A stretch of 64,000 nt of DNA from Lysobacteraceae bacterium PS02340 (GTDB lineage: Bacteria > Pseudomonadota > Gammaproteobacteria > Xanthomonadales > Xanthomonadaceae). The stretch lies in the NCBI GenBank assembly GCA_029959605.1, contig JASCOC010000004.1, forward strand, positions 1-64,000. The letters are read 5' to 3'. Made by a program: the position numbers and the translations under genes. The notes beneath the pieces are model-generated. The model searched no databases. It saw nothing but the letters and a program-made list of their open reading frames with translations, and was not told the origin of the DNA. This document shows, piece after piece, positions 11,621 through 49,031 of the stretch (its first letter is position 1; each line of letters begins with the position of its first letter).

Positions 11621-12616
11621 TCAGGCCGCGAGCGTCGGCCGGATGTCGCCGGCGACCAGCGCATCGAAGTAATCGCGGGTCAGCGCGATCTGCGCCTCCG
11701 CGGTCTCGGCGCGGTTGACCACACTGCGGAACGCCGCGTTTTCGGGCCGGTCCTTGGCGTACCAGCCCAGATGCTTGCGCGCGATGCGCACGCCGGAGGT
11801 CTCGCCGTAGAACGCGTGCAGCGCGTCGAGATGGCCGAGCAGGATGTCGCGCACTTCCGTCAGCGTGGGCGGCGGCAGATGCGTACCGGTGGCGAGGAAG
11901 TGCGCGATCTCGCGGAAGATCCATGGCCGGCCCTGCGCGGCGCGGCCGACCATCACCGCATCGACGCCGGTGTGGCGCAACACCGCCAGCGCCTTCTCCG
12001 GCGAGTCGATGTCGCCATTGGCGAGCACCGGAATCGACAGCGCCGCCTTGATCGCGGCGATCGTGTCGTACTCGGCGGTGCCGGTGTAGTGCTGGTCGCG
12101 CGTGCGGCCGTGCACGGCGAGCGCGGCGATGCCGGCATCCTGCGCGATGCGCGCGATGGTCGGCGCGTTGCGATGCTCGGCACACCAGCCGGTGCGGATC
12201 TTCAGCGTCACCGGCACGTCGACCGCGCGCACCACGGCACCCAGGATGCGCGCGACCAGCGCCTCGTCCTGCATCAGCGCCGATCCGGCCCAGGCGTTGC
12301 AGACCTTCTTCGCCGGGCAGCCCATGTTGATGTCGATGATCTGCGCGCCGTGGTCGACGTTGTAGCGCGCGGCGTCGGCCAGCATCGCCGGCTCGGTGCC
12401 GGCGATCTGCACGCCGACCGGCGCGGGTTCGCCGTCGTGGTCCATGCGCCGCAGCGACTTTTCGGTCTGCCAGAAGCGCGGGTCGCTGATCGTCATTTCC
12501 GACATCGCCAGCCCCGCGCCCAGCCGCTTGCACAGCTGCCGGAACGGCTTGTCCGTAACCCCGGCCATCGGGGCCAAGACCACGTTCGGTTCGATGCGGT
12601 AGGGACCGATCTGCAT
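11621..12616 (-). CDS. dusB: tRNA-dihydrouridine synthase DusB
   Basis: FMN/NADPH-dependent reduction of uridine in the tRNA D-loop. The 331-aa product starts MQIGPYRIEPNVVLAPMAGVTD, the DusB N terminus. Signatures include DINMGCPAKKVCN with the catalytic Cys, TLKIRTGW, and ALAVHGRTRDQHYTG, followed by the FMN-binding NGDIDSPEKA and VMVGRAAQG. In enterobacteria dusB precedes fis; here it instead follows a ribokinase gene by 53 bp on the same strand, and no fis is seen. Length is normal for the family. Confidence 0.96.
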   Translation of the reverse strand: MQIGPYRIEPNVVLAPMAGVTDKPFRQLCKRLGAGLAMSEMTISDPRFWQTEKSLRRMDHDGEPAPVGVQIAGTEPAMLADAARYNVDHGAQIIDINMGCPAKKVCNAWAGSALMQDEALVARILGAVVRAVDVPVTLKIRTGWCAEHRNAPTIARIAQDAGIAALAVHGRTRDQHYTGTAEYDTIAAIKAALSIPVLANGDIDSPEKALAVLRHTGVDAVMVGRAAQGRPWIFREIAHFLATGTHLPPPTLTEVRDILLGHLDALHAFYGETSGVRIARKHLGWYAKDRPENAAFRSVVNRAETAEAQIALTRDYFDALVAGDIRPTLAA

Positions 12617-12669
12617 GCCGCCATTGTCGCCGATCGACGGAATGCGGCGCTCGCGGCCGCTCCGGGTGT

Positions 12670-13620
12670 TCAGCCGCCGGCGGCGAGCCGCGGCATCGCC
12701 AGCGCGGCGCCGACGTGCTCGGTCGACAGACCGGCATAGCGGTTGGCGAAGCGCACGTGTTCGGCGAACGGATGCGCATGCGCGCCCGCGTAGGCCGCGG
12801 CGAGGGCGCCGTTGAACGCGTCGCCGGCGCCGGTGGTGTCGACGGGCTCCACCTTGTCGGCGGCCACGCGATAGAAGGGCGCGTCGTCGCCGCGCAGCAG
12901 GTCTTCTCGGTGCGAGACGAACGCGCCGGCGGCGCCGAGCGTGATCACCACGGTGCCACGCGGCAGCAGGGTGCGGCACAGGCGGTGCAGTTGCGCGTCC
13001 GGCGTGCCGGCGATCGCATCGCTGTCGATGCGGTGGCTGGTGTGGCGTTCCAGCAACGCGGCGAACTCGGTTTCGTTCGGGGTGAGGATGTCGGCCGCGG
13101 CCAGCAGTTCGCGCAGGCACTGCGCGTTCGCCGGTGCCGGGTTGAGCATCGTGATCGTGCCGGCCGCGCGTGCCAGGCGCATCGCTTCGAGCACGCTGTC
13201 GAGCGGCGATTCGAGCTGCGACAGCAGCACGCGCGCGCCGGCGAGCGCCGCGGCCTGGCGGCCCAGCCACGCGACGCTGAGATCGGCATTGGCGCCGGCG
13301 CCGATGACGATGGTGTTGTGACCGGCTTCGTCGACGTAGATGCCGGCCGTGCCGGTGGGCTGGCTGCTGTCGTGCACGCGCAGGTCGATGCCGTCGGCTT
13401 CGGCCAGCGCACGCGCCTGGCGACCGCCGTCGTCGTTGCCCAATGCGCACAGGAAGCCCGTCTCGGCGCCCGCGCGCGCGGCCGCGACGGCCTGGTTGAA
13501 GCCCTTGCCGCCCGGACCGGTGTGGTAACGACCGCTCAGCGTTTCGCCCAGGCGCGGCAGCGTGGCGCAGTTCCAGACATGGTCGACATTGAACGACCCG
13601 ACGACGACGACGTGACTCAC
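12670..13620 (-). CDS. rbsK: Ribokinase (PfkB family)
   Basis: A 316-aa PfkB-family sugar kinase. The N-terminal signature GGKGFNQAVAAARAG and the C-terminal anion-hole/catalytic motif DTTGAGDAFNGALAAA (catalytic Asp in GAGD) are both present, with the length of ribokinase. It starts 13 bp after the NupC stop on the same strand, so the pair is very probably an operon for nucleoside uptake and ribose or nucleoside phosphorylation. No nucleoside hydrolase or ribose ABC transporter is nearby, so a nucleoside-kinase activity (PfkB nucleoside kinases exist) is a real alternative. Confidence 0.87.
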   Translation of the reverse strand: MSHVVVVGSFNVDHVWNCATLPRLGETLSGRYHTGPGGKGFNQAVAAARAGAETGFLCALGNDDGGRQARALAEADGIDLRVHDSSQPTGTAGIYVDEAGHNTIVIGAGANADLSVAWLGRQAAALAGARVLLSQLESPLDSVLEAMRLARAAGTITMLNPAPANAQCLRELLAAADILTPNETEFAALLERHTSHRIDSDAIAGTPDAQLHRLCRTLLPRGTVVITLGAAGAFVSHREDLLRGDDAPFYRVAADKVEPVDTTGAGDAFNGALAAAYAGAHAHPFAEHVRFANRYAGLSTEHVGAALAMPRLAAGG

Positions 13621-40775: not shown

Positions 40776-41519
40776 ATGAGTCTATCCGTCGACCTGATCG
40801 AAGCCCTGAAGCGCGCCCTGCGCGCGCAGGGCATGACCTATCGCGTGCTGTCGCAGCGCCTGGCGATCAGCGAGGCGGCGGTCAAACGCATGTTCTCGCG
40901 GCGTGCGATGACGCTGGTGCGGCTGGAGTCGATCTGCGAAGTACTCGGGATCGGCCTGCAGGAACTCAGCGGCGACGCCGATCGAGGGCGCGAGCCGATG
41001 GCGCGCCTGAGCGAAGCACAGGAACAGGCGCTGGTCGACGAGCCGGCACTGATGCTGGCGATGTTCCTGACGATCAACCGGTGGTCGCAAGGCGAAGTGC
41101 TGGCGCATTTCGATTTCGACGTCCCGCAGTGGACAGGACTGCTGGTGCGGCTCGACCGTCTTGGCATCATCGAACTGCTGCCCGGCAATCGCGCACGCGC
41201 GCTGACCGCGCGCAATTTCCGCTGGCGCAGCGACGGACCCATGGAGCGTCACTTCCGCGCAGCGCTGCTGGGCGATTACTTCTCGACGCCGTTCACCGGC
41301 GCTTGCGACGCGCTGTTCCTGCTCAGCGGCAGCCTCGGACCCGACGGCATCGCCCAGATGCGCGCGCGCCTCGAAGACCTCGCACGCGAATTCGACGGTC
41401 TCCTCGCACGCGACGCCGGCCTTCCAGCGGAAGCGCGCACCGGCGTCAGCCTGGTGCTGGCGCAGAAGCCGTGGACGCTGCAGGTGTTCGACCGGTATCG
41501 ACGTCTGCCGTCCGGCTGA
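40776..41519 (+). CDS. XRE-type helix-turn-helix regulator
   Basis: A 247-aa protein with an N-terminal HTH (residues 5-65: LIEALKRALRAQGMTYRVLSQRL then AISEAAVKRMFSRRAMTLVRLE, ending GIGLQELS). The rest is a conserved C-terminal domain seen in many gammaproteobacterial XRE proteins (MARLSEAQEQALVDEPALMLAMFL). It is divergent from the DUF2145 pair with 111 bp between, so it may control that pair. Ligand unknown. Confidence 0.9.
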   Translation: MSLSVDLIEALKRALRAQGMTYRVLSQRLAISEAAVKRMFSRRAMTLVRLESICEVLGIGLQELSGDADRGREPMARLSEAQEQALVDEPALMLAMFLTINRWSQGEVLAHFDFDVPQWTGLLVRLDRLGIIELLPGNRARALTARNFRWRSDGPMERHFRAALLGDYFSTPFTGACDALFLLSGSLGPDGIAQMRARLEDLAREFDGLLARDAGLPAEARTGVSLVLAQKPWTLQVFDRYRRLPSG

Positions 41520-41838: not shown

Positions 41839-43122
41839 ATGGCCGAATCTCTGGCTGGACTGGTGAATGCAGCGGGAGCCGCCGCTGCCAGTGGCCGATG
41901 GCAGGAGGCCGAGCGCGTGTGGAGGCAGGTCCGCGCGCTCGACCCTGGAAACGTGCAGGCGTTGTTTAGCCTCGGCGTGCATGCATTCCAACGCGGAGAC
42001 ACGCGTGGCGCGCTGGAACTGCTGCAGACCGCGCGATCGCAGGCGCCGCGCGATCCGATGCTCTCCGTGACCGTCGCACGGGTCTACCGCGAACTTGATC
42101 AGCCGGATCAGGAATGGGGCGCGATCATCTCAGCGCTGGAGATCGATGCGTACTTTCTCCCCGGCCTGCTCGCCAAGGCGGAGTTTCTTGAGCGGCAGCA
42201 GCGCGTTCGCATGGCTGCGGCAGCGTTCCGCGATGCGCTGAAAGCTGCACCTGGGGAGCCGGAATGGCCGGCCGCATTGCGACGACGACTCGAACACGCA
42301 CGGGAGGTCGTAAGCGAAGACACCGAGGAACTCGCTGTGTATCTCGCGCATCGAGTAGCGGCGACGCGCGCCTCGGTGCACGCCGTGACGTCCGGGCGAT
42401 GGGACGAAGCAATTTCGATCCTCGCCGGCAAGACCCGTCCCTATCATTCGGAATGTCATCAGCTGCACGTGCCGCGACTGCCTGCGATCACGTTTTACGA
42501 TGATGCTCTCTTTCCGTGGATGCGCGAACTCGAATCGCGCACCGACGCGATCAAGTCGGAGCTGCAGAGCATGCTTTCCAGTCGAGGTGATGCGTTCGTC
42601 CCCTATATCCAGTACGGGCCGGGCGATCCGGTCAACCAATGGGACAAGCTCAATCACTCGCGCAACTGGAGTGGTTTTCATCTGTACTCGCATGGCGAGC
42701 CGGTACACGAACATCTCTCCCGATGTCCAGAGACCGCCGAAGCCCTCGCACTCGTGGGGCGTGCGGAGATTGCGGGTCTGTGCCCAAACGCGATGTTTTC
42801 AGCGCTGGCACCAGGTGCGCACATCCCGCCGCATACCGGAGAGACGAACGCGCGCCTGGTCGCGCACCTGCCGCTCGTGGTGCCTGACGGGTGCAGCTAT
42901 CGGGTCGGCTACGACAGGCGGGAGTGGCGCGAAGGCAAGTGCTGGGTATTCGACGACACCATCGAGCACGAGGCACGCAACGACGGCGAGCAGATGCGGG
43001 TAATTCTAATGTTCGACGTGTGGAATCCGCTGCTCAGCCTCGAAGAACGCGAGATGGCGAAAGCGCTGGCGGGGGCCATGCGCGACTGGCGTAGTGCGGG
43101 CGACGAAACGCGAAACCCGTGA
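41839..43122 (+). CDS. TPR protein fused to an aspartyl/asparaginyl beta-hydroxylase domain
   Basis: A 427-aa two-part protein. Residues 1-185 form TPR-like helical repeats (VWRQVRALDPGNVQALFSLGVHAFQRGDTRGALELL in pieces). The C-terminal part (about 215-400) is an Asp/Asn beta-hydroxylase (AspH/LpxO-type, Fe(II)/2-oxoglutarate) with His332 in HIPPHTGETNARLVAHLPL and His377 in VFDDTIEHEARN; the Arg of the NAR segment would bind 2-oxoglutarate. No signal peptide: cytoplasmic. It is first of four co-directional genes. The target is unknown; bacterial relatives hydroxylate lipid A or peptides. Confidence 0.92.
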   Translation: MAESLAGLVNAAGAAAASGRWQEAERVWRQVRALDPGNVQALFSLGVHAFQRGDTRGALELLQTARSQAPRDPMLSVTVARVYRELDQPDQEWGAIISALEIDAYFLPGLLAKAEFLERQQRVRMAAAAFRDALKAAPGEPEWPAALRRRLEHAREVVSEDTEELAVYLAHRVAATRASVHAVTSGRWDEAISILAGKTRPYHSECHQLHVPRLPAITFYDDALFPWMRELESRTDAIKSELQSMLSSRGDAFVPYIQYGPGDPVNQWDKLNHSRNWSGFHLYSHGEPVHEHLSRCPETAEALALVGRAEIAGLCPNAMFSALAPGAHIPPHTGETNARLVAHLPLVVPDGCSYRVGYDRREWREGKCWVFDDTIEHEARNDGEQMRVILMFDVWNPLLSLEEREMAKALAGAMRDWRSAGDETRNP

Positions 43123-43148
43123 ATTATTCCCGATCTTCCAGAGGGGCA

Positions 43149-43613
43149 ATGACGATGCGTTGGATGGCACTTTCGATCATGTGGCTGCTCGCGCTTCCGC
43201 TCGCTGCGCAGGAGGCAACTCATCCCTGCGCGCAGGTGGCGGGTTCTGCCGCGCGTTTGGCCTGCTATGACGCAGCGTTTCCCCTGTCCGCCGAGGTGCG
43301 TGAAGCGGAGGCGCAACAAGTGCAGGCCGCGTTTGGTTTGAACACACCGCGGGCGCCGATGCGCGGTGTCGAGAGCAGAATCGAACAGACCGATCTCGAT
43401 GGCTTTGAGGGCCGTGTCATCAAGGTAGACCACGGCCCAGGTGGGGTGCGCAGTTTCAGGTTCGAAAATGGGCAGATCTGGACGCAGACCGAGGCGCGTA
43501 GCACTGGACATGTTCAGGACGGGCAGACCGTGCAGCTGCGCAAGGGGGTCCTCGGCAGCTATCAGCTGGTCACGCCATCCGGTGTGGTGCTGCGCGTACG
43601 CCGCACGCGCTGA
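43149..43613 (+). CDS. Small exported protein of the oxygenase operon
   Basis: A 154-aa protein. GAGGGG sits directly before ATG 43149, which begins a signal peptide (MRWMALSIMWLLALPLAAQ). The mature N terminus has a CAQVAGSAARLACYDAAFP motif (two Cys 13 apart, a pattern common in exported proteins of this order), then a small beta-rich domain (GRVIKVDHGPGGVRSFRFENGQIW; GSYQLVTPSGVVLRVRRTR). It lies between two oxygenase genes with gaps of 26 and 11 bp. Function not known. Confidence 0.82.
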   Translation: MTMRWMALSIMWLLALPLAAQEATHPCAQVAGSAARLACYDAAFPLSAEVREAEAQQVQAAFGLNTPRAPMRGVESRIEQTDLDGFEGRVIKVDHGPGGVRSFRFENGQIWTQTEARSTGHVQDGQTVQLRKGVLGSYQLVTPSGVVLRVRRTR

Positions 43614-43624
43614 GCGAAAATTTG

Positions 43625-45310
43625 ATGGCGCTTCGCGCACGTCCATTGAGTTCTGCGCAGGCGATGCGCTTCACGCAGGCGATCACGTGGTTGCAGTCTG
43701 GGCGGCATCCACAGGCATTGGCCATCGCTGAAACACTGGTCGAAGAAGCGTCCTTGGCAGCGGACGCCTGGCAGTTGCTGGGCATGTGTCTGGCCGATAG
43801 CGGACAAGCGGCACGGTCCGATGCCGCGTTCGAGCACGCGCTCGGTCTGGCGCCGGGCAACATCTCGGTTTCTCGTAACTACGGCGTGTGTCTCGCGCTC
43901 CGCGGCAAATCATTGCGGGCCCAAGACCAGTTTGATGCAGCGGCACCCGTATTGCGCAAGGCGCTGGCTTTGTCGGATGAACTGGTCTCGGCTTGGGTGG
44001 ATCTGGGCGTGGTACTGCGTCGTCTGGGGCGCATCGATGAATCCCTCGCTGCGCTCCAGCGCGCCAAGCAGATGCTTGAAGCGCGCGGCGCCCATACGTT
44101 CGAAGTGTGTGACGCGATCAACGGTGTGCTTGCGGATGCCGGACGCCCGGCAGACGCGCTGGCAGGTGCGCGCGAACTGGTGGCCACGCATCCGGATCAT
44201 GCGCGCGCGCACGAAACATTGAGCAATCTTCTCTGGGAGCATGGTGAGCGACACGCGCCGGGTGAGGATCCGCTTTCGGAATTCCGAATCGCAGCGCGGG
44301 CGCAGCTGGACAACAAGCCTCTGCAGCTGTCATTCGCACGCATGTTGCTTGGCGCGCAGCGGGCGCATGAGGCCCTCGTCGTGCTTCACCCGCTACGCAA
44401 GCGCGAGCCTGATGACCCATTGCTGGCCTGGTTTGCCGCAGATGCACTCGATGCACTGCAAGAGCGCGAGCAGGCGACCCGCTTGTATGACGCAGCTTCG
44501 CGGGGCGTGTTGGCCGAGCTGCCGGAATTTCTGAATGCACGTGCTCGGCATGCGTTTCGCACACAGCGATTCGATCTCGCGGCACGTTGCGCAGAGACCG
44601 TAGTCAGCCGCGATCCTGTCAATCAGGAGGGCTGGTGTCACCTAAGCACCGCGTGGCGCCTGATGGGCGACGCGCGTGAGCATTGGCTGTGCGATTACGA
44701 AGCGCTGGTAGGCGATGTCGAAGTTCTGCCGCCGCAGGGATATGCCGACATGACGAGCTTTCTGGCGTCGCTTGGCACCGTGCTGGAAGGCATGCACACC
44801 GCCAGCCGGGGGCCTGTGAACCAGAGTGTGCGTGGTGGCTCGCAGACTGCCGGTCAACTGTTCGGACGCGACATTCCGGTCATCCGGGAAGCGGAAGACG
44901 CGCTGCGGATCGCTGTGGAGCGCTGGTTGACGAACTTGCCAGACCGCGCCGGTCACCCGTTCCTGGCGCGAAAAGAGCGGAGTGTGCAGTGCGTCGGATC
45001 TTGGTCGGTACGGCTGAAGGCGTCGGGGCGCCACGCCAATCATCTGCATCCGAAGGGCTGGGCGAGTTCTGCGTTCTATGTCGCGCTTCCGGACGAGATG
45101 CTCGCGGGTGACGCGCCGTCGCGAGCGGGATGGCTTCAGCTCGGACAGCCGATGGAAAGCCTGGAGCTCGACCTGCCGCCGCGTCGCCTGGTTCAACCAC
45201 GACCCGGCCATCTCGCGCTGTTTCCCTCTTACATGTGGCATGGAACACTCCCGTTCGAATCGGACGCATGCCGATTGACCGTCGCGTTCGATATGCAGCC
45301 CAGGCGCTAG
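43625..45310 (+). CDS. TPR protein fused to a 2OG-Fe(II) oxygenase domain (TIGR02466/PF13759-like)
   Basis: A 561-aa protein. Residues 10-360 carry many TPR units (WQLLGMCLADSGQAARSDAAFEHALGLAP and following). The C-terminal 200 residues resemble the putative 2OG-Fe(II) oxygenase family: metal ligands are probably in NHLHPKGWASSAFYV (His473 or His475) and FPSYMWHGT (His539), with a later Arg (CRLTVAFD) for 2-oxoglutarate. It is cytoplasmic. The gene starts 11 bp after the small exported protein, so it is in the same operon as the other TPR-hydroxylase. The two enzymes belong to different families. Confidence 0.88.
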   Translation: MALRARPLSSAQAMRFTQAITWLQSGRHPQALAIAETLVEEASLAADAWQLLGMCLADSGQAARSDAAFEHALGLAPGNISVSRNYGVCLALRGKSLRAQDQFDAAAPVLRKALALSDELVSAWVDLGVVLRRLGRIDESLAALQRAKQMLEARGAHTFEVCDAINGVLADAGRPADALAGARELVATHPDHARAHETLSNLLWEHGERHAPGEDPLSEFRIAARAQLDNKPLQLSFARMLLGAQRAHEALVVLHPLRKREPDDPLLAWFAADALDALQEREQATRLYDAASRGVLAELPEFLNARARHAFRTQRFDLAARCAETVVSRDPVNQEGWCHLSTAWRLMGDAREHWLCDYEALVGDVEVLPPQGYADMTSFLASLGTVLEGMHTASRGPVNQSVRGGSQTAGQLFGRDIPVIREAEDALRIAVERWLTNLPDRAGHPFLARKERSVQCVGSWSVRLKASGRHANHLHPKGWASSAFYVALPDEMLAGDAPSRAGWLQLGQPMESLELDLPPRRLVQPRPGHLALFPSYMWHGTLPFESDACRLTVAFDMQPRR

Positions 45311-45512
45311 GGCGTGCGTTCCGTGATTCGCGAAGCCTTTTGCGCTGCGGATAATGTCGTGCAACGCTGTGCAGCGTGCTTCAGTGCGCTGAATTCGCCC
45401 CGCGTCAATGCGTGGAGCGCGGGCGGATTCGGGGCGATCCGTGGTTTGATCGCATTGGCGATTTCTCTTGGCTCTTCCGTCGCGATTTTCCAGACTCTGC
45501 AGAGGTACCGAA

Positions 45513-45881
45513 ATGCACCGCAATTCTGATGGTTCAAGTCGTCTGCCTGAATTTCCCGCGCGCAGGCCCCGATCGCGTGGGCATGTGTATTGGCTACCGC
45601 TGGCCGTCCTAATCACTGGTGTGCTGTCTTCGGCACCAGCGGCTGCGCAGGAAGCGCAAGGGGCGCAGAAGGCAGAAGAGGCTGCTGTCACCCCATCCGC
45701 GATGCCCACAGGTTCCGGCAGGAGTGCGAGGGTGTGCCGATATGAAGATGTCACTGGCAGCCGAATGGGAAAACGGGTGTGCCGCACGTCTGAGCAGTGG
45801 GAAGCGCGCGAGAGATCGGCCAAGGCGGCGGTGCGTGAACTGGACAACAAACCAGTGGCCGGATATTTGAACGAGGAGTAG
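45513..45881 (+). CDS. Small exported Cys-pair protein
   Basis: A 122-aa protein. ATG 45513 has AGAGG seven bases upstream. An N-terminal basic stretch precedes a hydrophobic signal segment (YWLPLAVLITGVLSSAPAAAQ). The mature part contains VCRYEDVTGSRMGKRVCRTSEQWEARE, a short motif with two Cys about 15 apart that recurs in small exported proteins of Xanthomonadaceae. It ends about 200 bp before a bidirectional terminator. Function unknown. Confidence 0.72.
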   Translation: MHRNSDGSSRLPEFPARRPRSRGHVYWLPLAVLITGVLSSAPAAAQEAQGAQKAEEAAVTPSAMPTGSGRSARVCRYEDVTGSRMGKRVCRTSEQWEARERSAKAAVRELDNKPVAGYLNEE

Positions 45882-46092: not shown

Positions 46093-46121
46093 GCGGCGGG
46101 CCGAGGCCCGCCGCTTTTTTT
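46093..46121. terminator. Bidirectional terminator between the oxygenase operon and the TonB receptor
   Basis: A perfect 9-bp stem GCGGCGGGC/GCCCGCCGC with a 4-nt loop, T7 on the right (46115-46121) and A5 on the left (46087-46091). It can stop transcripts from both strands. The rest of 45882-46136 shows no gene. Confidence 0.93.
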
Positions 46122-46136
46122 GGAGCGTACCTGTAA

Positions 46137-49031
46137 TCAGAACTTCAGCGATACGCTGCCGAAGAAGTACCGACCGACCTGATCGTAGCCACCCAATGCG
46201 TTGGCATTGGCAGCCAGGCCGCTATCGCCGACGAACACAGGTTCCTTGTCGAGCACATTGTTCACGCCCAGCGACACCACCGCCGGACCAAAGCTCACGC
46301 TGCCGTTCAGATCGAGATAGCTGTAGGACGGCACGCCGTTTTCGATCCAGATCACGCCGTCCTCGATCGCGCTGCCATCGACGTCCTTGTAGTCCATCTC
46401 GCCGATGTAACGCCAGCGCAGACCAAGTGCGTAGCGGTCCCACGAGTAGCGCGCTGCGGCAATGTGCCGCCACTTCGGCGTCTGGCACAGGAACGTGTCG
46501 TTCACAAGACCCTTGCAGTCATAGCCGGTGCTCGGCTCGGAATCGAGCGTCTGGGTGTAGTCCTTGAGGACATAGTTGCCGCCCAGCGTGGTGGTCAGGC
46601 GCCCCGGCCCCACCGACAGCGAGTAGCTGGCAGAGAGATCCAGACCATTGCGCTTGTAGATGCCGATGTTGTCGGGGAGGTTGTTGATGTTGCCGGTTGC
46701 CGGATCGGATGCCTGGCCCACCCAGAGGTCGTAATCGCCTGAGCGTGCGTCCCGATTGATGCGGTCACAGTACAGATTCTGCTCCATGCAGAGGATCTGG
46801 ATCGTGTTGTAGCCGATGCCCGCAATCGCGCCCTCGATCTTCACGCTGTACCAGTCCAGGGACAGATTGAGATCCTCGATGGGCTCGACCGCGAAGCCCA
46901 CTGTGTAGGTGTCTGCGATCTCGGGAGCGAGACTCGGGTTGCCGCCGGTAATGTTGTTGTACTGGTTCGCGGGATTGCTCGGCACGTTGCCGTAGACCGC
47001 GAGCGGAACACCTGCCCGCGCGCACTGTTCGGCGGTGTAGCTGGGCGCCGCGCCCGCGCAGAGATCCGTACCACCGCTATTGAGTGCAATGCGCTGCGGA
47101 TAGTAGAGGTCATTGAGGCTCGGTGCGCGCACGGCGCGGTTGTAGCCGGCACGTACGAGGAGCTTGCTGTCGAGGAAGGAGCTGCTCAGGCCGAGCTTGT
47201 AGGTGTCGTAGTTGCCCGAGGTGTCGTCGTCGGAATACCGATAGCCGAGCGACGCATCGAGGCGGTTGAATGCGCCGCTGCCCACGAAGATGGGAAGCGC
47301 GGCTTCGAGGAAGAAGTCGTTCACGGTGTTGGACGCGTTCACCGGGAGGCTCGCGGCGCCCGCACCCGCGAAGTTGCCCGCGGCCGAGTCGCCGTCATAC
47401 TCCGTGGCGTAGGAGTAATCGCGACGTTCCATACCGAACGCCAGCCCGATCTCCTCACCATCCGCGCTCGGGAAGCCGAAGCCGAGGTACCCATTTGCTT
47501 CCGCCGAAAATGCGCGATAGCTGGTCTTGTAGATGCTGAAGCTGGTGCCTGCCATCGCATCGGCCGCTTCCTGGCTGATGTCGTTGTTCCAGATGTCGTA
47601 AAGGGTGCAGCCCGGGAAGGTGCCGTAGACCGGGTCGCTGCAGCCGAGAGCTGCGGCGGCGATTCGGCTGTTGAGGAAATCGTTCTTGCCGATATCGATG
47701 GTCTTGGTCTTGCCCGACAGCAGCGACACGTCGTAGGTCCACGAAGAGTCGAAGAACGCGCCGCGTACACCGGTGGTGATGCGATGGGTGGTGTCGTCGC
47801 TCAGGTGGATGCGCGGGCCGCCTTCCACGTTGCGCTTGTAGAGCGTGACGCGCGCCTGCGGCGTGGTGACGCCGGTGTCTGCGCAGAGCGTGCCGATCAG
47901 GGGGTTGTCGCAAGCCACGTTGACAGGAACGCCGAATGCGCCGGACTCCGCGATCTGCTGATCGGAGCTGCGCTCGAGGAACAGCGCTTCGATGTAGGGC
48001 TCGAAGTGCTCATTGATCTCGAAGCTTCCCATGAAGCCCGCGGTCACGCGTTTGTCCGGCCGCTGGTAGAAGTTGATCGGTGCGTAGTTATAGATCGGAA
48101 AGCCGTTTTCGTAGCCACTGCCGTTGTACACGAAGTTGGCATCCGTGCCCTGGGGCCATGGAACCACGGCACCATTCGCGAACTGGTTGACCAGGAAGCG
48201 GCCGGGATCGGCAGTGCCTGACCCGCCGCACTGCGGCGCGTCGAAGTAGACCGCGCAGCTGGAATAGTCACGTTGGCCCTGGTAGAGGGCATCGTTCTCG
48301 CGCCAGGTCAGCCAGCCGACCGCGTGGCCCCTGTTGTCGGCGAAGCTGCCGCCAAGCACCACCTCGGCGTTGCGGCTGATTCCGTCGAAGCCCGAGTCGC
48401 CGGTGGGATAGTCGAACCCGCTTTCTTCGTTGAGCGCCTGGATCGCGCGATTGTCGTTGTTGTGCTGGTATGCGGAGTAACCCAGATTGAAGCTGGCGCC
48501 TTCGAATTTGTCGTCAAGGACGAAGTTCACGACGCCGGCAACGGCGTCGGCACCGTAAACGGCGGACGCACCGCCAGACAGGATGTCGACGCGCCGGATG
48601 AGTGCGGCCGGTACGATCGAAGGATCGGTCACTTCGTTGCGGCTAGCCGGAAGGCGACGACCGTTGACAAGAGTAAGCGTTCGCTGCGGGCCGAGACCAC
48701 GCATCGAAATAGTCGCGTGACCGAAAGAGCCGTTGTTCTCGAAGTTGTCGAAGCTCAGATCGATCTGCGGCGACTGGTTGACCAGGTCTTCGACGGTCGT
48801 CGCGCCATAGGTGGTGAATTCTTCACCGCTGATTTCCGTAATCGGGCTCGAAGCCGTGAAGGTCTGGCTTTTGATGCGTGAGCCGGTGACCGTGATCGTG
48901 TCGAGTTCAGTAGCACTAGCGGCTTCTGGCGCGTCCTGGGCAAGCGCGACGCCGGTACCGGCAACGCTGGTCATACCTGCGATCAGCGCGAATGTGATCG
49001 CATCTCGCAGCCTGTTGGTCTTCAAGATCAT
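46137..49031 (-). CDS. TonB-dependent receptor (large, oligosaccharide/peptide-type)
   Basis: A 964-aa outer-membrane receptor. The signal peptide ends near ALAQD, then the TonB box ELDTITVTGSRIKSQ, and the plug (EFTTYGATTVEDLVNQSPQID; DILSGGASAVYGADAVAGVVNFVLDD). The 22-strand barrel follows and ends VGRYFFGSVSLKF with terminal Phe. GGAGAG precedes the ATG. The VTGSRI opening and Ala-Val-Tyr-Gly-Ala plug are those of the big Xanthomonas/Caulobacter TBDR expansions rather than siderophore receptors. Cys pairs in extracellular-loop-like regions are numerous. No Fur box was recognised upstream. It converges with the oxygenase operon. Confidence 0.95.
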   Translation of the reverse strand: MILKTNRLRDAITFALIAGMTSVAGTGVALAQDAPEAASATELDTITVTGSRIKSQTFTASSPITEISGEEFTTYGATTVEDLVNQSPQIDLSFDNFENNGSFGHATISMRGLGPQRTLTLVNGRRLPASRNEVTDPSIVPAALIRRVDILSGGASAVYGADAVAGVVNFVLDDKFEGASFNLGYSAYQHNNDNRAIQALNEESGFDYPTGDSGFDGISRNAEVVLGGSFADNRGHAVGWLTWRENDALYQGQRDYSSCAVYFDAPQCGGSGTADPGRFLVNQFANGAVVPWPQGTDANFVYNGSGYENGFPIYNYAPINFYQRPDKRVTAGFMGSFEINEHFEPYIEALFLERSSDQQIAESGAFGVPVNVACDNPLIGTLCADTGVTTPQARVTLYKRNVEGGPRIHLSDDTTHRITTGVRGAFFDSSWTYDVSLLSGKTKTIDIGKNDFLNSRIAAAALGCSDPVYGTFPGCTLYDIWNNDISQEAADAMAGTSFSIYKTSYRAFSAEANGYLGFGFPSADGEEIGLAFGMERRDYSYATEYDGDSAAGNFAGAGAASLPVNASNTVNDFFLEAALPIFVGSGAFNRLDASLGYRYSDDDTSGNYDTYKLGLSSSFLDSKLLVRAGYNRAVRAPSLNDLYYPQRIALNSGGTDLCAGAAPSYTAEQCARAGVPLAVYGNVPSNPANQYNNITGGNPSLAPEIADTYTVGFAVEPIEDLNLSLDWYSVKIEGAIAGIGYNTIQILCMEQNLYCDRINRDARSGDYDLWVGQASDPATGNINNLPDNIGIYKRNGLDLSASYSLSVGPGRLTTTLGGNYVLKDYTQTLDSEPSTGYDCKGLVNDTFLCQTPKWRHIAAARYSWDRYALGLRWRYIGEMDYKDVDGSAIEDGVIWIENGVPSYSYLDLNGSVSFGPAVVSLGVNNVLDKEPVFVGDSGLAANANALGGYDQVGRYFFGSVSLKF

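Follow-up and report, generated by a model that had tools for sequence, protein, structure and literature searches.

Two TPR-carried oxygenases and two small predicted exported proteins beside a TonB-dependent receptor: one version of a recurring modular cassette

On what do two oxygenases of different families act, when each is carried on tetratricopeptide repeats (TPR) and both stand in one row of genes with two small exported proteins? The question is raised by a stretch of 64,000 nucleotides from Lysobacteraceae bacterium PS02340 (GenBank assembly GCA_029959605.1, contig JASCOC010000004.1, positions 1 to 64,000 of the forward strand), referred to below as the window, in which an earlier note, made from the sequence alone, had described such a unit of four genes. 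The window locus is one version of a recurring modular cassette, in which tailoring enzymes, TPR-carried and exchangeable, are combined with small exported proteins and a TonB-dependent receptor (TBDR). The four genes of the unit stood, but their constant partner in other genomes is the receptor gene, which the note had left outside; the second oxygenase (OG5) and both small proteins (sm1 and sm2) are present in some cassettes and not in others, and elsewhere TPR-sulfotransferases and methyltransferases join the set. The genes of the window cassette are as follows.

41839..43122, + strand: AspH, TPR repeats and PF05118; likely start ATG 41839; assigned by domain match and alignment of relatives
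43149..43613, + strand: sm1, small predicted exported protein; open reading frame (ORF) 43119-43613, likely start ATG 43149
43625..45310, + strand: OG5, TPR repeats and PF13759 2-oxoglutarate (2OG)-Fe(II) oxygenase; likely start ATG 43625; assigned by domain match
45513..45881, + strand: sm2, small predicted exported protein; ORF 45468-45881, likely start ATG 45513
46137..49031, - strand: TBDR, PF00593 and PF07715; convergent with AspH-sm1-OG5-sm2

All four co-directional genes were found with the gaps described before (26, 11 and about 200 bp); from the likely starts, 26 bp separate AspH and sm1, 11 bp sm1 and OG5, and about 202 bp OG5 and sm2. The likely start of sm1 is preceded by AGAGGGG.

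Relatives of AspH were collected by a scan of GTDB species genomes, resulting in at least 579 proteins, the best 80 of which were kept and are referred to as the named loci. For the window's own family, neighbourhoods were taken from 40 of 57 other places, mostly the better-scoring ones. Family counts rest on searching every ORF of 60 or more codons with profiles, because a gene caller based on the G+C content of third codon positions (GC3) missed sm1 and sm2 of the window. The members of the first loci served to build the profiles. Low-scoring matches to the TPR-sulfotransferase can be cross-matches to TPR, and a stricter recount was made. Two loci occur twice (L100/L034 and L120/L041), and Fisher values ignore kinship.

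An AspH match with E<=1e-20 was found in 56 of 149 family genomes. In 36 of the 40 family stretches, covering about 8 kb on each side, a TBDR stood near AspH; one exception, L045, ends at a contig edge. At the stricter cut-offs, these 40 stretches held a TPR-sulfotransferase in 21 cases, a methyltransferase of one kind in 14, sm1 in 8, OG5 in 7, sm2 in 6 and a PF13640-type oxygenase in 5. Among the 80 named proteobacterial loci, a TBDR lay within 8 kb of AspH in 57 (36 of 51 when only loci with a full 8 kb on each side are counted). Linked records came from Xanthomonas, Stenotrophomonas, Lysobacter, Peristeroidobacter, Hyphomonadaceae, Caulobacteraceae, Haliea and Blastomonas. The 57 TBDR-linked loci contained sm1 in 34 cases, TPR-sulfotransferase in 26, OG5 in 18 and sm2 in 13, against 0, 1, 2 and 0, respectively, in the 23 unlinked loci. 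For sm1 this corresponds to a Fisher p=1e-7, with 8 of the 23 unlinked loci being short stretches. Following removal of duplicates, sm1 was present in 32 and TPR-sulfotransferase in 24 of 55 linked loci, and the value for OG5 was no longer significant (p=0.08). The earlier note had made its proposal depend on conserved co-occurrence in related genomes, and such co-occurrence was found: AspH, sm1, OG5 and sm2 stand in the same order opposite a TBDR in 2 of the 40 family loci (L032 and L033) and in 5 of the 80 named loci (L093, L094, L095, L097 and L101), L093 and L095 being from Luteimonas sp. XNQY3 and L. suaedae.

A clustering blind to function was also made of the genes called in 120 loci, 118 of them with AspH and two being AspH-free cassettes; it used the same GC3-based gene caller, so that small genes are undercounted. 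The most frequent clusters, labelled by profile or by eye, were AspH (116 loci), TBDR (90), TPR-sulfotransferase (48), OG5 (27) and sm1 (26). The eight clusters ranking next, in 13-24 loci each, appear to be genes of a shared Lysobacteraceae location or general genes, and a methyltransferase was present in 13 loci. Throughout, HslO, PEPCK-like, acyl-CoA dehydrogenase-like, TetR and tatC-like are provisional gene names, in part given by eye.

As a control, 16 other TBDRs of the window's genome were inspected in 15 stretches, some of them cut by contig ends. None was accompanied by AspH, OG5, the methyltransferase, sm1 or sm2, and one stood with a TPR-sulfotransferase. Close relatives of the window's TBDR (>570 bits) were present in 15 family genomes; 12 had AspH, OG5 or TPR-sulfotransferase beside them, 11 of these 12 together with sm1, and three were enzyme-free, one being a fragment at a contig end. 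Two TBDR paralogues with 36% identity were inspected and both stand alone. In a FastTree tree (support values not read), the TBDRs beside AspH form several separate branches mixed with cassette-free TBDRs, and the link between TBDR and AspH therefore goes beyond inheritance of one locus. Family cassettes are often flanked by XOO1806 and an hslO-like gene, with varying order, orientation and content, and some lie elsewhere. Since the cassettes vary in order, content and place and their TBDRs fall in separate branches, repeated assembly around receptors is favoured over simple descent, one inherited locus accounting for the pattern only partly.

Some cassettes carry other genes. In an AspH-OG5-TBDR locus without sm1, a DUF6445 protein follows the TBDR (L035:15308-15907). 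In L052, a stretch with AspH and TBDR, a gene matching the sulfotransferase profile lies on either side of one (11897-13495) for a protein with MethyTransf_Reg (PF10119) and PKMT_2nd (PF21782), which resembles the lysine methyltransferases of outer-membrane proteins; no PF10119 or PKMT_2nd protein was found at 33001-54000 of the window.

Both enzymes belong to distinct families, as had been proposed. AspH matched PF05118 with E=4e-43 (147 bits against a cut-off of 22.6), the one such match in the window's genome, and OG5 matched PF13759 with E=1e-21. The AspH profile aligns with human AspH across the TPR and oxygenase domains (7yb9, profile 14-421). According to the accessible text of PMC6817910, the human enzyme has two iron-binding histidines and Ser, His and Arg at its 2OG site. 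Residues S321, H332, H343, H377 and R387 of AspH align with human Ser668, His679, His690, His725 and Arg735 (pairwise alignment, numbering by spacing), and are invariant across the 14 rows of a full-length alignment of AspH and 13 relatives. The three nearest named relatives, among the best 80 of at least 579, are from Luteimonas (78-83% identity). In OG5, residues H474, H476, H540 and R551 are kept in 27-28 of 30 aligned TPR-type copies. To judge from these residues, AspH and OG5 look functional. Strong copies of OG5 (>360 bits) number 12 in the 149 family genomes, ten of them in TBDR cassettes and two elsewhere, without TBDR or sm1. Of nine weak copies, eight were inspected and none lay in a cassette, L193 having a low AspH-profile match and L199 a low TBDR match. 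No signal peptide was evident by eye in AspH or OG5, and we therefore infer a cytoplasmic location for both.

The receptor has a plug (PF07715) and a barrel (PF00593), and its model (mean predicted local distance difference test score, pLDDT, 83) matched PfeA in Foldseek with E=8e-37. Receptors for siderophores, colicin, heme and B12 were its matches in the PDB, those by sequence lying mostly in the plug; no ligand was assigned. One loop of the receptor was noted as a candidate site.

47883..47912, - strand: codons of TBDR Cys374-Cys383, a Cys-x-Asn-x6-Cys loop; candidate site by motif geometry

Human AspH is described in the accessible text of PMC9293771 as preferring a 10-residue Cys-x-[D/N]-x6-Cys loop. 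In the 10-residue loop Cys374-Cys383 of the TBDR, Asn376 lies two places after Cys374, at the position hydroxylated by human AspH in EGF-like loops (geometry as given in the accessible parts of PMC6817910 and PMC9293771). The C-x-[DN]-x6-C pattern was found in 17 of 84 cassette TBDRs including the window's, and lies elsewhere in the receptor in L067, L117, L118 and L122. The loop is without the aromatic residue of the classical AspH motif, and the strict motif C-x-D/N-x4-F/Y-x-C was found in none of 84 cassette TBDRs, 45 sm1 and 23 sm2 proteins, nor in the five window proteins tested. Going by this geometry, the loop with Asn376 is a candidate hydroxylation site only. A clade-specific loop, Cys839-Cys849, was tried as a site tracking AspH and rejected, being kept in enzyme-free relatives.

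What, then, would the enzymes act on? Tentatively, and with some lean towards it, we propose that the substrates of the cassette oxygenases are exported proteins encoded in the same locus, chiefly the receptor, and that these are hydroxylated before they are secreted. The choice of TBDR over sm1 or sm2 as target is a judgement and not a result. The receptor is favoured as a target before export because a TPR-plus-catalytic-domain layout recurs among cassette enzymes of different chemistry, because the partner that they share is the receptor, because the TPR domain of human AspH binds the protein substrate and is required for its hydroxylation (accessible text of PMC6817910), and because bacterial precedents exist in KmtA of Acinetobacter, which methylates AtaA, and in the rickettsial protein lysine methyltransferases (PKMTs), which methylate OmpB (accessible text of PMC11784438); a protein with the PKMT domains is also encoded in the AspH-TBDR stretch L052. 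In the proposed sequence of events, AspH and OG5 would work in the cytoplasm, where their TPR superhelices would grip an unfolded stretch of the Sec-bound precursor, much as human AspH grips its EGF-like substrate by the TPR domain. AspH would place a hydroxyl group on Asp or Asn and OG5 would hydroxylate another residue; the modified receptor could thereby gain altered contacts with ligand, phage or bacteriocin, and sm1 and sm2 may be envelope partners or further targets.

Several observations weigh against a hydroxylated receptor. No Asp or Asn column of the TBDR separates AspH-positive from AspH-negative relatives, and most of the columns compared are identical in L173 and L174, both without AspH. 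In the enzyme-free L200 and L201, from one genus, only D216 and N698 differ, and N698 is kept in the enzyme-free L202. The Cys374-Cys383 loop is missing in the AspH-positive TBDRs of L039, L040, L096, L101, L102 and L105 (Thr), and Cys-x-[DN]-x6-Cys is present in the AspH-free L173, L200, L201 and L202. Human AspH requires a disulfide loop, according to the accessible parts of PMC6817910 and PMC9293771, and formation of such a loop would not be expected in the reducing cytoplasm. The enzyme itself departs from its human counterpart: Arg688, which hydrogen-bonds a 2OG analogue (accessible text of PMC6817910), is replaced by Val341, and AspH is for this reason regarded as a relative, not an equivalent, of human AspH. 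In 23 of the 80 named loci AspH is without a TBDR (15 with full flanks, 8 in short stretches), with Brevundimonas and Caulobacter orphans among them. The shared position beside XOO1806 accounts for part of the family signal. Lastly, the PKMT-like protein is strong only in L052 and weak in L137 (an AspH locus) and L186 (a control locus).

The TBDR-less TPR-AspH genes of Brevundimonas and Caulobacter (L149, L151, L152, L158, L160, L166 and L171), some of which lie near ribosomal-looking genes, form a second, unlinked type.

The alternative that survives best, although we consider it doubtful, takes the small exported proteins, mainly sm1, as the hydroxylated product or an adaptor; AspH and sm1 would be the working pair and the TBDR merely a user. 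Export of both small proteins, as had been noted, is predicted from a basic and then hydrophobic N-terminus with an A-x-A-like end (judged by eye). sm1 consists of a Cys hairpin (C..RLxCYD) and a predicted beta barrel resembling the oligonucleotide/oligosaccharide-binding (OB) fold; its AlphaFold model has a mean pLDDT of 82 and a predicted template modelling score (pTM) of 0.47, and because of the latter the two domains are not placed relative to each other. Foldseek gave no match to the model at E<=0.001, with weak matches to OB folds such as IF-1, and the sm1 profile gave only two matches among PDB sequences (E 0.3-0.4). sm2 is characterized by C..(5-7)..TGSR......VC.T.

A working pair is suggested by position: in 21 of 43 sm1 copies, the window's included, sm1 stands directly 3' of AspH on the same strand, also in distant gammaproteobacteria, and in ten of these 21 pairs AspH is only 38-41% identical. 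The restriction of sm1 to TBDR-linked named loci (34 of 57 against 0 of 23) points the same way, as does its absence from the three enzyme-free close TBDRs. In the 149 family genomes, all 11 sm1 copies above 120 bits stand in cassettes of TPR enzyme and TBDR (nine at AspH loci, two at AspH-free cassettes of OG5, TPR-sulfotransferase and TBDR), and all six sm2 matches above 80 bits stand at cassettes, weaker ones reaching at most 53 bits; these counts are partly circular because the profiles were built from cassette members. At D51, sm1 shows no variation in alignments of 12 and of 64 rows and next to none in one of 28, but the residue is also kept in the AspH-free L173 and L174. Against sm1 as the product, 23 of the 57 TBDR-linked named loci lack it, only 8 of the 40 family AspH stretches contain it, the human AspH motif is absent from the sm1 and sm2 sets given above, and weak matches to its profile (<=47 bits) occur in most family genomes (any match with E<=1e-5 in 121 of 149).

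The distribution of sm1 at larger scale argues likewise. Following scoring of 7996 candidates, 1085 relatives were found at E<=1e-10. Phylum-wide, sm1 was present in 50 of 398 genomes including the window's; 53 stretches cover 55 matches beside that of the window, two stretches holding two copies. A TBDR was found in 30 of these 53 stretches and a recognised enzyme (AspH, OG5, TPR-sulfotransferase or PF13640-type) in only 12, leaving 41 with none; among the 14 best-scoring stretches the numbers were 13 and 5. From these proportions, the primary association of sm1 is with TBDRs, and in the window's family it is with cassettes that combine a TBDR and an enzyme. Other gammaproteobacteria have a lower-scoring group without TBDR, and two sm1 homologues of this group (L219, with two tandem copies, and L222) adjoin tatC-like genes, as judged by eye, which also speaks against a product of AspH.

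A motif is shared by sm2 and the receptor. TG[ST][RL] occurs in 17 of 23 sm2 copies (VTGSRM in the window) and within the first 160 residues of 76 of 84 TBDRs, VTGSRI standing at the start of the plug in the window's TBDR. The likeness may be accidental, or it may reflect shared recognition or a mimicry of the TonB-box region. Pairs of sm1 and TBDR were further seen near an SBP_bac_5 oligopeptide-binding protein or a BPD_transp permease (L207, L208, L210, L212, L216, L111 and others), a hint that the sm1-linked TBDR group takes up peptides.

It is improbable, in our estimate, that the enzymes instead tailor a peptide or other small molecule destined for uptake by the receptor, or for export followed by re-import, in the manner of methanobactin or lasso peptides. 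TPR-sulfotransferase and methyltransferase are frequent cassette members, and peptide uptake is hinted at by SBP_bac_5 near 4 of the 80 named AspH loci and 7 of the 53 sm1 loci, and by BPD_transp near 7 and 4, respectively; in the 41 family stretches including the window's, neither was found. A table of halotolerance gene clusters of Pontixanthobacter lists, under the neighbouring cluster numbers 1738-1748, a lasso peptide B2 protein, two sulfotransferases and an aspartyl beta-hydroxylase, together with PqqD and an asparagine-synthase-related protein (PMC10040529, Table 2). If these rows of the accessible table are read as one locus, some alphaproteobacteria would seem able to carry such enzymes within a lasso-peptide locus, and clusters 1738-1748 may possibly represent the locus of a hydroxylated, sulfated lasso peptide. 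In the window's family, the 21 matches to the lasso B2-type domain PF13471, from 16 of 40 genomes, all lie on another contig or more than 250 kb from AspH. No core biosynthetic enzyme or exporter was recognised in the 45 commonest gene clusters (by eye, from first residues; genes of at least 90 codons), and no core enzyme of ribosomally synthesized and post-translationally modified peptides was found among 8 window proteins scanned, short precursor peptides not being searched for. The TPR domains point to protein partners rather than to small molecules.

Least probable of all is that the genes share only an insertion hot spot beside HslO-XOO1806 while AspH and OG5 act on unrelated cell proteins. 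In its favour are the presence of XOO1806 in 21 of 40 family stretches, the varying order and make-up of the cassettes, the lower GC3 of AspH, sm1 and OG5, and two strong OG5 copies placed elsewhere without TBDR. Against it, bacteria of other orders and classes preserve the link at other sites, and it is found starting from AspH, OG5, sm1, sm2 or TBDR alike and is lacking at the other TBDRs of the genome save for one TPR-sulfotransferase.

The base composition of the region bears out the earlier description of it as poorer in G+C than its surroundings: G+C is 0.632 for 41839-45881 and 0.619 for the TBDR, against 0.680 for the remaining window. Equal-length segments with G+C this low make up 8.5% of the total, nearly all overlapping 41839-45881 or the TBDR. 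GC3 is 0.71 for AspH, 0.72 for sm1, 0.69 for OG5 and 0.80 for the TBDR, against 0.82-0.89 for five nearby non-cassette genes. Beyond the TBDR the window holds an XOO1806-family gene and a gene that we take to be hslO. Immediately 5' of AspH lies an HTH_26 gene (40776-41519), relatives of which stand near AspH in L032 and L034; it is a possible regulator of the AspH operon. Between sm2 and the TBDR one further feature was found.

46093..46114: possible bidirectional terminator, formed by a G+C stem of 9 bp with a T-run

Terminator-like sites numbered 7 against 6.2 expected; because this is not above chance, the stem is regarded as a consensus match only.

Returning to the receptor as target, a broader proposal would be that Proteobacteria possess modular receptor tailoring, in which receptor-adjacent, TPR-guided hydroxylases, sulfotransferases and methyltransferases alter surface loops before Sec export, in the window perhaps by beta-hydroxylation of Asn376 in the Cys374-Cys383 loop, with sm1 and sm2 as dedicated envelope partners. 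We regard this general form as unlikely on present evidence. If true, it would be a bacterial counterpart of the hydroxylation and sulfation of secreted proteins in the endoplasmic reticulum (ER), and to our knowledge bacterial precedents for such tailoring of surface proteins are few. TPR-AspH genes are abundant in bacteria (at least 579 relatives), and no substrate of a bacterial TPR-AspH was named in the literature found, as far as titles and abstract openings state; the constant TonB-receptor partner makes the substrate question testable by one proteomics experiment. sm1, with more than 1000 mostly unnamed proteins, is given its first genomic context. No description of such a cassette was found in the full-text literature covered, which excludes subscription papers and preprints.

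Compared with known systems, the window AspH resembles human and other eukaryotic AspH in its architecture of TPR followed by PF05118, alignable over both, and in the two-His iron site, the Ser/Arg 2OG site and the equivalent of His690. Unlike human AspH, it has no ER or membrane anchor visible by eye, carries Val for Arg688, and has genes for a TonB receptor and for small exported proteins as its neighbours, with the strict motif absent from the five window proteins. With rickettsial PKMT1/2 and Acinetobacter KmtA it shares the proposed modification of an outer-membrane or surface protein by a bacterium; the reading given here is hydroxylation whereas theirs is methylation, and TPR are not mentioned for them in the accessible text of PMC11784438. 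The TPR-sulfotransferases (PF13469) beside TonB receptors, recurrent in sister cassettes, have the same TPR-plus-catalytic layout, although the window cassette, unlike these, holds no such enzyme. Methanobactin operons combine a sulfotransferase with a TonB receptor. Unlike in these operons, no core biosynthetic enzyme was seen among the 8 window proteins scanned, and sm1 is a predicted folded exported domain; the likeness lies in the placing of a tailoring enzyme beside a TonB receptor.

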